A DNA stretch of 22,924 bases from a virus. Made by a program: the position numbers and the translations under genes. The notes under the pieces are model-generated. The model was not told the DNA's origin. It did not search any database and saw only the letters and a program-made list of their open reading frames with translations. Of the stretch, positions 5,790-22,893 are shown piece after piece (positions within the stretch are counted from its first letter, which is position 1; the number at the start of each line of letters is the position of its first letter). Where the stretch lies: the IMG/VR virus record IMGVR_UViG_3300033388_001512, positions 1 to 22,924 of that record. One strand, given 5' to 3'.

Positions 5790-6110
5790 TTAATACCTCT
5801 TTTTCAAGGATTGAGTGTTTGACATTTTCCTTTTTAGTATTTCGAGACCAGCTTTATCTAACTTGTTTTCTTTTTCCGCCTTACCTAGTCTAGATTGTAG
5901 CTCTTTTTGTAATCTCTCCAAACTACTCTTTCCTGTTTTTCTAGTATCTATATCATAAACAGGTTTTGGATCGTTCGCTATGGCTAATTGTAGTAATGCC
6001 TCCTCGGCTTTTATGATTTCAATCTCTGTGACAAGTCCTATGAAAACACTATAAGGCATTTTTAACATCTCTGTGTATGAAATGTTATAAAAACGAGCAA
6101 ACCTCGCCAT
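5790..6110 (-). CDS. Tail assembly chaperone, T-type extension (made by -1 frameshift)
   Basis: A 106-residue frame between the G-type chaperone and the tape measure, the lambda gpG/gpGT arrangement. It is helical and charged; 'SSLERLQKELQSRLGKAEKEN' suggests a coiled coil. It lies in the -1 frame of the upstream gene, and the frame is open back to the slippery run at 6137-6143. A shift there would fuse 88 residues (counted from ATG 6400) plus nine linker residues (RKRADLIKT) to this ORF. The ATG at 6110 has no visible ribosome site and sits in the loop of the frameshift stem, so most product is probably the fusion. In this family the fusion recruits tail tube subunits to the tape measure. 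Confidence 0.85.
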   Translation of the reverse strand: MARFARFYNISYTEMLKMPYSVFIGLVTEIEIIKAEEALLQLAIANDPKPVYDIDTRKTGKSSLERLQKELQSRLGKAEKENKLDKAGLEILKRKMSNTQSLKKRY

Positions 6111-6143
6111 AGTTTTAATTAGGTCTGCCCGTTTTCTTTTTTT
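6094..6143 (-). promoter_or_regulatory. Programmed -1 ribosomal frameshift signal
   Basis: On the coding strand the run A-AAA-AAA (6143-6137, part of eight A's) lies in the X-XXY-YYZ phase of the upstream frame (GAA AAA AAA GAA). After a 5-nt spacer (6136-6132), a 10-bp stem forms between 6131-6122 (CGGGCAGACC) and 6103-6094 (GGTTTGCTCG), with an 18-nt loop and two G-U pairs. The stem encloses both the zero-frame stop and the downstream ATG. Slippery site, spacer and stem together match the classical signal in phage tail chaperone genes. Confidence 0.9.
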
Positions 6144-6394
6144 TCGTCTACAATCTCAGAACTTATATACTCTACTAACTTCATCTGTTTTCTAAATGAG
6201 GCTTTCGATACTTCTTCTGCATCTTTCTTGTTCATTATAGACTCAAAGAACAGCTTAACGCTTCTCAAATTAGGATTATCAGTCAAATCCGATAATAAAA
6301 TCATATCATTTAAGCTCGGTTCTTTGGCGCTGTATCTTTTACCATTAAAAGTAAACTCGATACTACGATCTTCAATTTTGTCTAAATCTAACAT
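6119..6394 (-). CDS. Tail assembly chaperone, G-type
   Basis: A small acidic protein (91 residues from this start) in the lambda gpG position, between tail tube and tape measure. It contains 'EFTFNGKRYSAKEPSLNDMILLSDL', a short beta hairpin followed by helices, as is usual for this family. The zero frame ends 'VDEKKENGQT' just after the slippery run. Two ATGs are possible: the one at 6400 is only one nt from AAGGAG, while the one at 6394 is 7 nt away, so I chose 6394. It acts with its frameshift product on the tape measure during tail assembly (family knowledge). Confidence 0.85.
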   Translation of the reverse strand: MLDLDKIEDRSIEFTFNGKRYSAKEPSLNDMILLSDLTDNPNLRSVKLFFESIMNKKDAEEVSKASFRKQMKLVEYISSEIVDEKKENGQT

Positions 6395-6417
6395 TTCCAT
6401 TCTCCTTTATTTAGTTA

Positions 6418-17404: not shown

Positions 17405-18874
17405 TTACCAACCTCTCGGCTTTGAGCTAAATGTCCTTACACTTTCCTTGTGACTTAAAGCCAATGCATTGCTCCAAAAGCTATCTGCGTGGCCTTCAGG
17501 ACTTTCCAACGACTGTAAATCATTATTCACCATTAACATCTGGCTTATCTGTCGTTCGTCATCTATCAATTCAATTCTACCATCTGCGATTTTCTCCTGC
17601 AAAGAGTTAGCCATGCTACTCATTGTCTTTATATTAAATATAACAGGTTTTAGCTCAGTTGGTAACTGTCCATTTTCTCTTAAAGCTTCAAGCTCACCTC
17701 TTGTTGCGTCATAATATATAGTATCTATACCGAGGTTTTTGATACTTGTGCTTATATATTCTAACTGAGTCGGCTTCTTTGGGTCGTATTTGCCGGTAGA
17801 GTTATTATAATCCCAATTATCCATCCACACATTTAATCTCTGTATCCAATGATTTGTTTCATCTCTAGTATAAACTACGAAATGGCTAGGATGAGCCTTC
17901 TTACCTATATCCCAACCGCCGATAATATCTAGATTTTTGATATGCTCTTTACTTTTTTCAGTCCATATATTTATATTCGATAATTTTGGATTAACTCTGC
18001 TTCTTAGTTCTTTTTCATTCAGATATGCGTCTTCGCTATATACCGGACTGCACATAAACTCTTGATTGAAGTTCTTTATTCCGAGTGCATTTTTCTTTTC
18101 CATCAGTCTTTCCCAGCTCCAATACTCCGGCCATAGCTGTATTTTCTTTTCATAACTTATAACTGCAGGCGAAATCATTATCTTAAAACTACCACCATTT
18201 TCTAATCTGAGCTTCTTGTCAAAAAAAAAGTCAAAATTAGTCTGAGGCGTTCCTACTGCGTGAACTATACCTGTATCTTTATGTGGCATACTCAATAATT
18301 CTTTGACAAATATATCGTTGACTTTTTTTATTACAGTCGGCAACATCTTGTTTTCGGGGTCTCTCAACGGATCGTCAACATAAATATCATCACAGTGAAT
18401 ACCACGCTTGAATGTTAATAATCCCTTAGGCTCTAAGGTGTAAACTGAGTTCGGATTGCCATTCCAAAATACTTTCAAAGCACTCTCGGCTTTTACTTTC
18501 AGGTCTATCATATCTCCGAACCAGAGATTTCTATGTATTAGATCTTTTATTTTCTTTATATGATAAGCACTCATATCATGATTATATGAAAAATAATGAG
18601 CTTCTATGTTCTTTTTAGAAACCATTAATTGCCATATACGCCACATTACGAACGCATACATTGAAGTCGACTTAAAGTGATCACGAGCCGATACTCGCAT
18701 TGTATGCCGATAGCCTGTATAAAACTTTACTACTTCCCATATATAATCTCCTGCTATAAACTCCTCGAAACTAGCACTAAATATATATTTAACAAAAACC
18801 TCGAAAGAGTTTATTGCCCTAATAGCTATCGTCTTATCAGAAATGTTATTTGCCTGATCCATTAGTCTTGACAT
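17405..18874 (-). CDS. Terminase large subunit
   Basis: A 489-residue packaging motor. The ATPase half has a Walker A-like loop in the deviant form common in phages ('ARDHFKSTS', 63-71), Walker B 'DIYVDDPLRD' (163-172) and coupling motif 'VHAVGTPQTN' (204-213). The nuclease half has the three acidic sites of the RNase H-like fold: 'GGWDIGKKAHPSHFVVY' (D322), 'IDTIYYDATRGE' (D389) and 'GHADSFWSNALAL' (D464). Length and motif order are complete. The start overlaps the small subunit gene by 29 nt and has GAGGAGG upstream. It pumps DNA through the portal and cuts the concatemer. Confidence 0.95.
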   Translation of the reverse strand: MSRLMDQANNISDKTIAIRAINSFEVFVKYIFSASFEEFIAGDYIWEVVKFYTGYRHTMRVSARDHFKSTSMYAFVMWRIWQLMVSKKNIEAHYFSYNHDMSAYHIKKIKDLIHRNLWFGDMIDLKVKAESALKVFWNGNPNSVYTLEPKGLLTFKRGIHCDDIYVDDPLRDPENKMLPTVIKKVNDIFVKELLSMPHKDTGIVHAVGTPQTNFDFFFDKKLRLENGGSFKIMISPAVISYEKKIQLWPEYWSWERLMEKKNALGIKNFNQEFMCSPVYSEDAYLNEKELRSRVNPKLSNINIWTEKSKEHIKNLDIIGGWDIGKKAHPSHFVVYTRDETNHWIQRLNVWMDNWDYNNSTGKYDPKKPTQLEYISTSIKNLGIDTIYYDATRGELEALRENGQLPTELKPVIFNIKTMSSMANSLQEKIADGRIELIDDERQISQMLMVNNDLQSLESPEGHADSFWSNALALSHKESVRTFSSKPRGW

Positions 18875-19232
18875 TTTTTTCTGCCTCCTCGCTATTTTTT
18901 ATGCTTTGCATAATAGCAATAATTTCTTCAGAGTCTACTTTCCGTTCATTAAAATCGCCTTCAATCCGTTGTGTTGGCATACCATCAACATAGTTTAATA
19001 TGTTTTTAATCTGCTGATCATTCCCATCTTGTATAGCAGATTTTATTATTCTTCTAACCAACATATAGGCGTATGTCTTTTTATCTTCGCCTTTAGGACA
19101 CTTTTGCAATTCTTCTTTTAATATAGATACTAAAGAAAACTTTGGCCGTCCGTTAGGATTTGCATTATTTCCCGGACCAAATGTTCCATCAGGTTGCCGG
19201 TTGGCTCCGTTTTTGTCGGTTTTTTCACTCAT
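18846..19232 (-). CDS. Terminase small subunit-like protein
   Basis: A 128-residue protein immediately before the large terminase. The N-terminus is the Gly/Pro/Asn-rich 'PDGTFGPGNNANPNGRPKFSL' type (residues 13-33), which I know from a family (DUF5681-like) encoded at the small terminase position. A helical region follows ('TYAYMLVRRIIKSAIQDGNDQQIKNILNYVDG'), and the C-terminus is charged. The start overlaps the ParB-methyltransferase stop as ATGA. It probably recognises the packaging site and loads the motor; this is family and position knowledge, since no helix-turn-helix is obvious. Confidence 0.75.
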   Translation of the reverse strand: MSEKTDKNGANRQPDGTFGPGNNANPNGRPKFSLVSILKEELQKCPKGEDKKTYAYMLVRRIIKSAIQDGNDQQIKNILNYVDGMPTQRIEGDFNERKVDSEEIIAIMQSIKNSEEAEKNVKTNGSGK

Positions 19233-20389
19233 AATTTTTTAGCCTTCTCTCCTGTAAATTGTTCCCATCTTTTAATAATTACATCAATGTATTTGGGGTC
19301 TAGTTCCATCATATAACACTTTCTGTCCAGCTGTTCACAAGCCATTAAGGTTGAGCCAGAGCCACCAAAGAGATCAAGGACTATGTCCCCAACCTTGCTA
19401 CTGTTTTTAATCCCTTTTGCACATAACTCTATCGGCTTCATTGTGGGATGTTCTTTACTCTTTAGTGGCCTATCTATCTCCCACACTTCTACCTGTTTTC
19501 TATCTCCGACAAAAGAAGATTTACTTTTTTCGTTCCAACCATAAAAGCAAGGTTCATACATCCTTTGATATTTAGCAGAACTCAGGACTAACTGTTGCTT
19601 CTTCCATATAATTGTCGCAGACCAATGAAAACCAGCGTCAACATACGCTAGTCTTGACCTCATGCCGTCTGGGCCAGGTGCTCCGAAAACATAAATATCT
19701 CCTGAGCATCTAGCAGACATCGTCTGGGCCAGATGCAAATTAAAATCGGCCCATTCTCTGTCTCCCATACTATCATTTTCTATGCTCCTTATCTTGTGTC
19801 TGGGGTTTTTTGAACTTCCATAGTCAACATTGTATGGTGGGTCTGTAAACACCATATCTGCCTTTTCCCCATCCATCAGTTTCTCTACATCCTCTGCCTT
19901 TGTGGCATCACCGCACATTAGTCTGTGGCCTCCTAATTGATATATCTCTCCTATTTTAGATTCGGGTTCATCTGGGATGTCTGGTATCTCATCTTCCTCT
20001 ACTTCTTTTTCAATCTTTAGGTCTTTCTCGTCAAAACCCATATCTAATAACTCCTCTATACTGTAATCATCGGCCAATATATCAAAGTCATCTTCACCAA
20101 ATCCCAAGTTATCTTGAACTATAAATCTTTTAATCTGTTCTGGTGTAAAGTCAGATCCGTCTTGCACCCAATCATCTGGTATCTCTGTCATTCCCAACTC
20201 TTGGAAAGCCCTGTATCTCATATTGCCTGCCAATATAATATTATCCTTATCAACTATGATAGGTCGCTTCTTCATCATCTTATCGGTGAAGTCATTATCC
20301 TTCTCAATAGAATGAACAAGTTTCTTGAACTTATCGTCTTCAATGTGACGAGGATTGTTTGGATTTGGTTTTATTACATTTAATTTCAT
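19229..20389 (-). CDS. ParB-like domain fused to DNA methyltransferase
   Basis: A 386-residue fusion. Residues 1-110 are ParB/sulfiredoxin-like: 'LNVIKPNPNNPRHI', 'RPIIVDKDNIILAGNMRYRAFQELG' (given here as 42-66). Residues 145-386 are an N-methyltransferase of the class with motif order IV then I: 'MVFTDPPYNVDYG' (179-191, DPPY 183-186), 'HPTMKP' (314-319), 'DLFGGSGSTLMACEQL' (339-354) and 'ELDPKYIDVIIKRWE'. It should methylate adenine N6 or cytosine N4. No paired endonuclease is visible. Its start codon lies inside a 19-nt inverted repeat arm and no ribosome site precedes it, so initiation may be controlled by RNA folding (inference). Confidence 0.92.
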   Translation of the reverse strand: MKLNVIKPNPNNPRHIEDDKFKKLVHSIEKDNDFTDKMMKKRPIIVDKDNIILAGNMRYRAFQELGMTEIPDDWVQDGSDFTPEQIKRFIVQDNLGFGEDDFDILADDYSIEELLDMGFDEKDLKIEKEVEEDEIPDIPDEPESKIGEIYQLGGHRLMCGDATKAEDVEKLMDGEKADMVFTDPPYNVDYGSSKNPRHKIRSIENDSMGDREWADFNLHLAQTMSARCSGDIYVFGAPGPDGMRSRLAYVDAGFHWSATIIWKKQQLVLSSAKYQRMYEPCFYGWNEKSKSSFVGDRKQVEVWEIDRPLKSKEHPTMKPIELCAKGIKNSSKVGDIVLDLFGGSGSTLMACEQLDRKCYMMELDPKYIDVIIKRWEQFTGEKAKKL

Positions 20390-20511
20390 TAAGCAGGACA
20401 GTAAAAATCAGAGAGATTAAATACTGCCTGCCGGAGGGAAATTAGCACTTTTGAAAAAATACTAGAACCCATTATGTGTGCCTAGGACTTCCGTCCTACT
20501 TAATGAAATTA
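20381..20511 (-). promoter_or_regulatory. Inverted-repeat RNA element over the methyltransferase start codon
   Basis: In the coding RNA, arm TAATTTCATTAAGTAGGAC (20511-20493) can pair with GTCCTGCTTAATGAAATTA (20399-20381) along all 19 positions, one of them a U-G pair. On the other strand that position is an A-C mismatch, so the fold favours the transcript. Arm 2 contains the ATG of the ParB-methyltransferase gene and arm 1 starts with the stop codon of the preceding gene. Inside are a 6-bp GGAA-loop hairpin (20498-20483), a weaker A/U-rich hairpin with G-U pairs (20464-20443) and a 3-bp GC-rich loop (20437-20427). Confidence 0.65.
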
Positions 20512-21132
20512 CTTGCTTATCATAAATATCGTATTATCAATACCTGGTTTATACAAATAATTATAATCATTCACTTTCATATCAGGCTGGAATATATTAA
20601 ATTTTCCTTTTGATATTTTCTTCAATTTATCAGTAAAAGCTTTGATTTCGTATCCTCTTAAATGATCTGACTGCTTTTTATAATTTTTGCCTTCGAATGG
20701 CACAGCTATAAAACAAACTCCGTTCGGTTTTAATACTCTTATCATCTCTCTGATAGCTTCTTTGTCATCCTCTACATGTTCTAATACATGAATACATATA
20801 ATCACATCGAAACTATTTTCAACAAATTGTAATCTCTGAATATCAACTATTTCATCTTCACCCTCGGTAGTATCGACACTCTTATATTCACAATACTTAT
20901 TGTTTTTAAGTGCGTTTTTTATTCCCTCATTAGGCGAAAAATGTAGCACACTAAATTCAGTCTTTTTTTCTTCTGATTTGTCTAAATTAGGCCTTATTAT
21001 TTTATACAAAAATCTATGCCTACATAATGATTTACATTCCGGACATTGCTCTTTAGTTCTGCCTCTGAAATCAACGAAATCACCATCGAAACCGCATATA
21101 TTACACTTGAAAGTCTTTTTCACATTTTCCAT
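20509..21132 (-). CDS. Zinc-ribbon SAM-dependent methyltransferase
   Basis: A 207-residue protein. The N-terminus is a zinc ribbon: C10-x2-C13 and C30-x2-C33 ('CNICGFDGDF', 'CPECKSLCRHR'). The rest is a class I methyltransferase with degenerate motif I ('SVLHFSPNEGI', 61-71), an acidic residue at 'YKSVDTTEG' (83-91), and the typical 'FDVIICIHVLEHVEDD' (108-123) and 'EMIRVLKPNGVCFIAVPF' (129-146). Such zinc-ribbon enzymes often occur near polysaccharide genes, but the substrate is unknown. The ATG has AAGGAG 7 nt upstream. Its stop is inside arm 1 of the inverted-repeat element. Confidence 0.88.
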   Translation of the reverse strand: MENVKKTFKCNICGFDGDFVDFRGRTKEQCPECKSLCRHRFLYKIIRPNLDKSEEKKTEFSVLHFSPNEGIKNALKNNKYCEYKSVDTTEGEDEIVDIQRLQFVENSFDVIICIHVLEHVEDDKEAIREMIRVLKPNGVCFIAVPFEGKNYKKQSDHLRGYEIKAFTDKLKKISKGKFNIFQPDMKVNDYNYLYKPGIDNTIFMISK

Positions 21133-22059: not shown

Positions 22060-22082
22060 TCGTTTCTTTATTATATCCACTA

Positions 22083-22182
22083 ATGTAGAGAGGCAACTGG
22101 TTTCAACGTTGCGACAAATTGGCGGCTCGAACGCCCACTTGGCCTCCTGCTTCGTATCAGGCTACCACGCCACTCTCTACAT
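22083..22182 (-). ncRNA. Candidate cloverleaf-like structured RNA (not a canonical tRNA)
   Basis: A perfect 10-bp closing stem (ATGTAGAGAG 22083-22092 with CTCTCTACAT 22173-22182) encloses three hairpins: GCAAC/GTTGC (22093-22097, 22108-22112), GGCG/CGCC (22121-22124, 22132-22135) and CCTG/CAGG (22146-22149, 22158-22161). On the minus strand it has tRNA-like pieces, 'GTGGTAGCC' and a 'TTCGAGC' loop, but the T-like loop is not next to the acceptor strand and no 7-nt anticodon loop with U33 fits. GC content is higher than that of neighbouring genes. The strand is chosen because all genes are on it; function is unknown. Confidence 0.5.
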
Positions 22183-22198
22183 ACTAGATATAAAGTTG

Positions 22199-22213
22199 TT
22201 AATGTGTGAAATT
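22199..22213. repeat. 15-bp direct repeat, left copy
   Basis: TTAATGTGTGAAATT occurs here and again at 22394-22408, exactly 195 bp apart. This copy contains the stop codon of the small gene at 22199-22384; the other lies just upstream of that gene's ribosome site. The pair frames one complete small gene. Confidence 0.85.
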
Positions 22214-22384
22214 ATCATAATGAAAATGTAATGGAAACAAATGCAAGTTCCAGCTTCCGTGTTTTCTTTTAACGAAACACCATCCGTGTTTTCTTTTAAC
22301 GAAACACCATCTCTTGACCAGAAAAGGACTACTAAGCTGTAATCTAATATAAAGTTTCCCTATTGTCCATTCTTTGTCTTTCAT
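22199..22384 (-). CDS. Small basic protein with internal duplicated segment, unknown function
   Basis: A 61-residue, basic, aromatic protein I do not recognise. The start is convincing: AAGGAGA lies 4-5 nt before ATG 22384, and the protein begins 'MKDKEWTIGKLYIRLQLSS'. A 27-bp exact tandem duplication doubles the nine residues 'WCFVKRKHG', so the product contains two Cys, four Lys and two Arg in a row of two units. The gene lies exactly between two 15-bp direct repeats. The ribosome site supports coding; the perfect repeat shows a recent event and leaves open that the ancestral gene was 52 residues. No membrane segment or signal peptide is seen. Confidence 0.55.
   Translation of the reverse strand: MKDKEWTIGKLYIRLQLSSPFLVKRWCFVKRKHGWCFVKRKHGSWNLHLFPLHFHYDNFTH
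22257..22310. repeat. Exact 27-bp tandem duplication
   Basis: Two identical 27-bp units (22257-22283 and 22284-22310) follow each other without a gap. Each carries a dyad, GTGTTT and AAACAC, separated by 10 nt. Inside the small gene it duplicates nine codons in frame. The dyads also allow an operator or iteron reading, spaced 27 bp apart. Confidence 0.95.
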
Positions 22385-22566: not shown

Positions 22567-22598
22567 GCTTTCTCCTTTAATGTTTATATACATTGGTT

Positions 22599-22669
22599 GG
22601 GGAGGAGCAGACTTGCCCCTCCCCCTGTCAGTAGGCGGTTGGTAGCCTAGTTTACGACTCATCGGCTAC
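22599..22669. other. Two hairpins between small genes, one very GC-rich
   Basis: GGGGAGG 22599-22605 pairs with CCTCCCC 22618-22624; after an A/C mismatch, GC/GC pairs extend the stem around a 6-nt loop. It lies 33-58 nt upstream of the start at 22566. A second stem, GTAGCC 22642-22647 with GGCTAC 22664-22669, lies just after the stop of the gene at 22678. No U-run follows either, so they are not simple terminators; they may stabilise or attenuate the small-gene mRNA. Confidence 0.5.
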
Positions 22670-22677
22670 GAGTTCGC

Positions 22678-22893
22678 CTAACATCTGTTCAGTTCGATTC
22701 CGTTCTCTAGCAGATGTATGTCTGCTTTGACAGTTTCGTTGTGCCATTTTCTGGCATCTTCATCTGATTCGAAAAGTGCGACTACGTGTCGCTTGATGTG
22801 TCCACACTTAGTGGCGAAGTAGTGATACTTCCCCTGTGCGTAGTAGAGATTGAACCCCCACTCGCCATCGGCGTATCCCTGAATAAACTTCAT
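22678..22893 (-). CDS. Small hypothetical protein
   Basis: A 71-residue protein, 'MKFIQGYADGEWGFNLYYAQ' onward, with a beta-rich, aromatic N-terminal half ('GKYHYFATKCGHIKRHVVAL') and an acidic helical part ('FESDEDARKWHNETVKADIHLLENG'). It has two Cys and several His but no clear zinc motif. The ATG overlaps the end of the previous frame (TAATGA), with a G-run just upstream. Its GC content is visibly higher than in the head and tail genes, so it may belong to another module. Function is not recognised. Confidence 0.6.
   Translation of the reverse strand: MKFIQGYADGEWGFNLYYAQGKYHYFATKCGHIKRHVVALFESDEDARKWHNETVKADIHLLENGIELNRC

Follow-up and report, generated by a model that had tools for sequence, protein, structure and literature searches.

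A 131-nt inverted-repeat element spans the junction between two methyltransferase genes of a virus and is predicted to fold into a closed structure in which the start codon of the downstream ParB-methyltransferase gene is paired with the region of the upstream stop codon. The element is real as sequence, and its fold, as modelled, may form in vivo. The reading favoured here, held tentatively and at a little less than an even chance, is that of a lineage-specific intercistronic structure, which would block independent initiation and tie translation of the ParB-methyltransferase to that of the upstream gene by RNA-unfolding coupling. A regulatory role, as judged from one virus lineage and from predicted folding, is plausible.

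Gene context of the element

The window, i.e. the whole stretch of 22,924 nt that was analysed, is a 22.9-kb virus record in which the predicted genes, including those for tail, head and portal proteins, lie almost entirely on the minus strand. The predicted genes surrounding the element are all on that strand and the leader RNA is thus expected from the minus strand only. The features relevant to the analysis are as follows.

17405-18874, minus: TerL gene
18846-19232, minus: DUF5681 (TerS-like) gene
19229-20389, minus: ParB_N plus N6_N4_Mtase DNA methyltransferase (ParB-methyltransferase), 386 aa, phrog_498
20381-20511, minus: complete structured element between the two cistrons (131 nt), running from the upstream methyltransferase's stop codon to codon 3 of the ParB-methyltransferase
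20381-20399, minus: 3' arm, GUCCUGCUUAAUGAAAUUA, holding AUG AAA UUA (ParB-methyltransferase codons 1-3)
20387-20389, minus: start codon AUG of the ParB-methyltransferase, pairing with CAU 20503-20505 and lacking a Shine-Dalgarno sequence
20392-20432, minus: hairpin P4, GCAGGCAGUA/UACUGUCCUGC, adjoining P1
20436-20470, minus: hairpin P3, with a GGG/CCC base and two U-G pairs
20483-20498, minus: hairpin P2, UAGGAC-GGAA-GUCCUA, which cannot coexist with the upper part of the long arm helix
20493-20511, minus: 5' arm, UAAUUUCAUUAAGUAGGAC, of which 20501-20511 take part in P1, the basal helix (11 bp in the minimum-energy fold)
20509-20511, minus: UAA triplet that ends the upstream methyltransferase frame and opens the 5' arm
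20509-21132, minus: upstream gene, class I SAM-dependent methyltransferase, 207 aa

An HNH-like gene lies on one side of the element and the terminase genes on the other. The upstream methyltransferase has no homologue among phage database records and finds weak matches in bacterial plasmids; from its sequence it looks like a bacterial-type accessory gene, apparently acquired, and may have arrived along with the element. The record IMGVR_UViG_3300033144_001801 represents the same virus, with 0 mismatches across the shared stretches compared. A 27-bp unit at 22251-22304 occurs twice in the window and once in that record, the rest being identical; either the tandem repeat varies in copy number or the assemblies differ.

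Anatomy and predicted fold

The two 19-nt arms are separated by 93 nt and are complementary at 18 of 19 positions as DNA, the odd pair being U-G in the minus-strand RNA, while a second G-U lengthens the arm helix to 21 bp. The initial annotation of this DNA had described such arms with one U-G pair and an ATG inside their helix, together with the UAGGAC-GGAA-GUCCUA hairpin and further inner hairpins; the arms (20381-20399 and 20493-20511) and the ATG (20387-20389) are present as described, and the hairpins all appear in the predicted minimum-energy fold. The partner bases of the AUG are nucleotides 7-9 of the element. The distance from the upstream stop codon to the ParB-methyltransferase start is 119 nt, and an in-frame UGA located 21 nt 5' of the AUG leaves the latter as the sole usable start in its frame.

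Folding of the minus strand from 20511 to 20381 yields a closed four-helix structure of -43.6 kcal/mol (z -6.25), which was equalled by 0 of 200 shuffles and is predicted to persist in 241- and 331-nt contexts; the plus strand of the element gives -36.4 kcal/mol (z -4.98). An inverted repeat of the arm length, searched with at most one mismatch within 200 nt in locally shuffled copies of the window, was encountered in 1 of 150 such copies, corresponding to a window-wide chance of about 0.7%, the fold not yet counted. The argument that the G-U pairs of the inner hairpins exist only in the sense strand fared less well: an inner hairpin with U-G pairs (P3) is indeed predicted, but the sense-antisense energy difference at the element (-7.2) is unremarkable for this DNA (mean -5.9, sd 5.4), with 42% of windows at least as skewed, and the strand asymmetry was rejected as evidence for RNA. 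In a scan of all 131-nt windows, equally or more unusual folds were found at 22594-22724, 6019-6149 and 22069-22199. A strong fold is therefore not unique to the element, which is distinct in spanning a stop-start junction.

Of these other regions, 22594-22724 (minus, z about -5) has the window's most unusual fold; it lies in a gene-poor region and overlaps a sub-threshold preQ1-II match (22 bits, 47 needed). The minus strand of 22069-22199 folds strongly into a closed structure whose base, AUGUAGAGAG/CUCUCUACAU, has 10 bp and which includes a T-arm-like GUUCGAGC stretch; neither ARAGORN nor Rfam made a call there. At 6088-6144 (minus), a slippery A AAA AAA G run and, after it, a long hairpin are located between a 93-aa ORF (6119-6400) and a 106-aa ORF (5790-6110), shortly upstream of the tape-measure gene, with the -1 frame open to the end of the 106-aa ORF; judging from its sequence, this is the -1 frameshift typical of tail assembly chaperones.

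Accessibility of the start codon

Most genes in the window are preceded by a Shine-Dalgarno sequence of the AGG/GGAG type. None was found before the ParB-methyltransferase AUG, as had been noted initially, and in the prediction the AUG has a mean unpaired probability of 0.00 (0.15 for the region from -20 to +10), the lowest of the 29 starts examined.

The element has an alternative fold, in which P1 extends to 19-21 bp, P2 is lost and P4 is replaced, at -41.5 as compared to -43.6, i.e. 2.1 kcal/mol above the minimum. Whether P1 has 11, 13 or 19/21 bp, the AUG is paired. As it sits within the first 11 basal pairs, which are common to both folds, their exchange leaves it unexposed, and this takes away the chief argument for a two-state switch. 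Of the switch proposed in the initial annotation, the competing folds are borne out by the prediction and the control of the start codon is not.

A different outcome was obtained when the presence of a ribosome was mimicked by forcing the stop codon and the next 6-15 nt to be single-stranded. Under this constraint P1 is lost while P2-P4 stay, and the unpaired probability beside the AUG (scored on the bases UAA 121-123, the last A being that of the AUG) rises from about 0 to 0.9; the 3' strand of P1 is open throughout the printed constrained structures. The start region thus lies in a predicted helix, which in the constraint fold is disrupted by the ribosome.

A model of translational coupling

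In the favoured model, the stretch from the upstream stop codon onward would pair with the first codons of the ParB-methyltransferase and exclude free ribosomes, whereas a ribosome terminating on the upstream UAA would cover the 5' strand of P1, so that the helix would open and leave the AUG unpaired. The ParB-methyltransferase would then be produced only when the upstream gene is translated, presumably at a low level since a Shine-Dalgarno sequence is lacking. The opening of the helix by the terminating ribosome is predicted by the constraint-fold model, and the remaining steps are inferred. Precedents have been described in which structure keeps a start region silent until translation of the upstream gene opens it, including rpmI-rplT at a +52 spacing (PMC12548453).

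Several considerations weigh against coupling. The absence of covariation or conservation counts against it in the sequences compared, where no relative has the element, as does the lack of a Shine-Dalgarno sequence even with the helix open. Coupling is generally weaker with distance, and the 119-nt gap between stop and start is thus a further adverse point. A stable structure placed right after a stop codon has been associated with blocked re-initiation rather than with coupling (PMC7518266), which likewise speaks against the coupling model.

Distribution among relatives

Relatives were gathered from viral contigs using the ParB-methyltransferase (80 loci), TerL alone and in alignment, and the upstream methyltransferase; among these the element was not found outside the same virus, the sole other carrier being a near-identical assembly. 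It is absent from the closest protein relatives (56%, L003-L006). When 71 ParB-methyltransferase leaders were folded alike, the fold was shared by four, all from the same virus, and the other 67 lacked both an inverted repeat of this kind over the start and a z-score of similar size, the best among them being -3.48 in a leader (L016) whose start is unpaired. Arm conservation, the test set beforehand for a regulatory RNA, was thus seen in 0 of 67 leaders, which argues against a conserved one. With 0 relatives carrying the element, it is, as far as the sequences compared indicate, not a conserved structured RNA family. Motif scans with P2 plus the junction, the arms and the inner stretches returned chance matches only (e.g. 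in L082, L086, L096 and L097), and a blastn search against phages and plasmids gave only short chance matches.

A TerL search of genome contigs identified a contig (L095, JAFCCK010000001.1) in the metagenome-assembled genome (MAG) of a Diapherotrites archaeon, with a TerL that is 47% identical to that of the virus studied here. It carries a ParB-methyltransferase, a small gene and TerL, shares the ParB-methyltransferase-TerS-TerL order, and may represent a virus infecting that host or else a virus contig that was binned wrongly. The element is absent here and the methyltransferase ATG immediately follows the preceding stop codon.

The start sequence AUGAAAUUA / ATGAAATTA also occurs in three element-free relatives (L020, L035 and L036). 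The end of the 3' arm therefore looks like native coding sequence which the 5' arm matches, and the comparison suggests that the 5' arm is the novel part; AAA UUA are also the codons that would be expected in an AT-rich genome.

Origin of the element

These observations bear on the possibility that the element is a small MITE-like inverted-repeat insertion, or a template-switch inverted duplication of the ParB-methyltransferase start, with no regulatory role. Such an origin, to which roughly one chance in a handful may be assigned, would account for the restriction to one virus lineage and for the near-perfect arms, which fit a recent inverted duplication or an element with terminal inverted repeats; the arms can be read as 17-bp terminal inverted repeats with flanking TA. 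Like MITE-type elements, the element is about 130 bp long with near-perfect terminal inverted repeats and a possible TA-flanked reading, but it differs from them in being single copy and without relatives, and in that the end of its repeat coincides with the downstream coding start. The native appearance of this arm end counts against such an origin, and the template-switch form may still apply. The occurrence of the same 131-bp unit at unrelated sites, which had been named beforehand as the sign of a mobile element, was not observed, no further copy being found in the virus (38.6-kb assembly) or among the virus, phage and plasmid sequences searched. Moreover, the empty site reconstructed by taking out the element on a TA-duplication model has a ParB-methyltransferase frame with no start codon, and a simple mobile insertion at a TA target is disfavoured because the gene would previously have had none. 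Deletion of all 131 nt joins both genes in one frame, but with a 1 in 3 chance of this and a native M-(I)KL start retained in relatives, an intron or bypass reading was set aside. A gain of only the part before TAATGAAATTA would imply an earlier TAATG stop-start overlap, a common coupled arrangement.

Alternative functions

Unlikely, though deserving of some weight, is an RNase III processing or mRNA-stability site, in which a helix of about 20 bp is cut and the upstream message separated from the ParB-methyltransferase-terminase message. Intercistronic RNase III sites are established in phages such as T7 and in lambda sib, and the 19-21 bp helix, or P1 stacked on P4, is of acceptable length. 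The lowest-energy fold, however, splits the 19-bp helix into shorter ones, and cleavage would still leave the AUG without a Shine-Dalgarno sequence. An intrinsic terminator was considered and rejected, as no U run follows the element on its 3' side and a scan of the minus strand for terminators found none; the missing U-tract is in keeping with RNase III processing.

Slightly less probable again is an insulator, i.e. a ribosome termination structure: re-initiation would be prevented, the accessory gene upstream would not drive the next gene, and the latter would be very weakly expressed. Stable structures following stop codons are enriched at intergenic distances >25 nt and reduce re-initiation (PMC7518266). 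The predicted fold of the element likewise stands at a stop codon with a gap exceeding 25 nt, and the upstream gene looks acquired and accessory, without a homologue in the phage database. Insulation would, however, leave the ParB-methyltransferase with no visible route of initiation, there being neither a Shine-Dalgarno sequence nor a promoter-like minus-strand site nearby.

A DNA-level site, such as an inverted repeat for packaging, replication or protein binding, appears improbable. It would suit the position between the HNH-like gene and the terminase genes and the binding of DNA palindromes by the ParB_N domain family, but the arms are 93 nt apart, the inner hairpins would have no explanation, and the Diapherotrites-associated contig with the same gene order is without the element.

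A ligand-responsive switch, e.g. for SAM/SAH, is more doubtful still. Two folds within 2.1 kcal/mol of each other and a methyltransferase gene on either side might invite this explanation, but the AUG is paired in both folds, no conserved relatives exist from which an aptamer could be defined, and the comparison with Rfam proposed initially gave no SAM/SAH or other riboswitch model match at the gathering score or at E<=10. Thus, of the cis-acting switch or structured leader suggested in the initial annotation, a strong predicted fold burying a start codon devoid of a Shine-Dalgarno sequence holds, and the ligand or two-state switch is not supported. Least probable of all is a bacterial analogue of ribosome shunting, in which the stop codon and the start lie on opposite strands of a single helix and the terminating ribosome would be handed to the next start across the base of the closed structure.

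Comparison with known systems

The proposed coupling resembles the RNA-unfolding coupling of E. coli rpmI-rplT and MS2 coat-lysis, where the downstream start is likewise paired with a strand that ribosomes of the upstream gene cover, and a collision of ribosomes at the start is unnecessary (PMC12548453). The element differs in its pairing partner, which starts right at the stop codon, in a stop-to-start distance of 119 nt as against 52 nt or an overlap, in three extra inner hairpins and in the absence of a Shine-Dalgarno sequence; coupling here is a prediction. With the ribosome termination structure, it shares a stable structure directly 3' of the stop codon and an intergenic gap >25 nt; that structure, however, is local and thought to block re-initiation, whereas the helix of the element also holds the next start codon (PMC7518266). 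Alternative intergenic stem-loops are likewise known from Salmonella mgtC-mgtB, where they control translation of the downstream gene in a manner dependent on the small ORF mgtQ, whereas the alternatives of the element leave the pairing of the AUG unchanged (PMC8092293).

As a single unconserved case, the element carries limited general weight. If the coupling model is correct, it would represent a compact phage example in which a terminase-adjacent DNA methyltransferase is linked to the translation of an acquired accessory gene, with the pairing of the stop-codon region and the next start codon serving as the tie, and it would bear on whether structures following stop codons couple neighbouring genes or insulate them.
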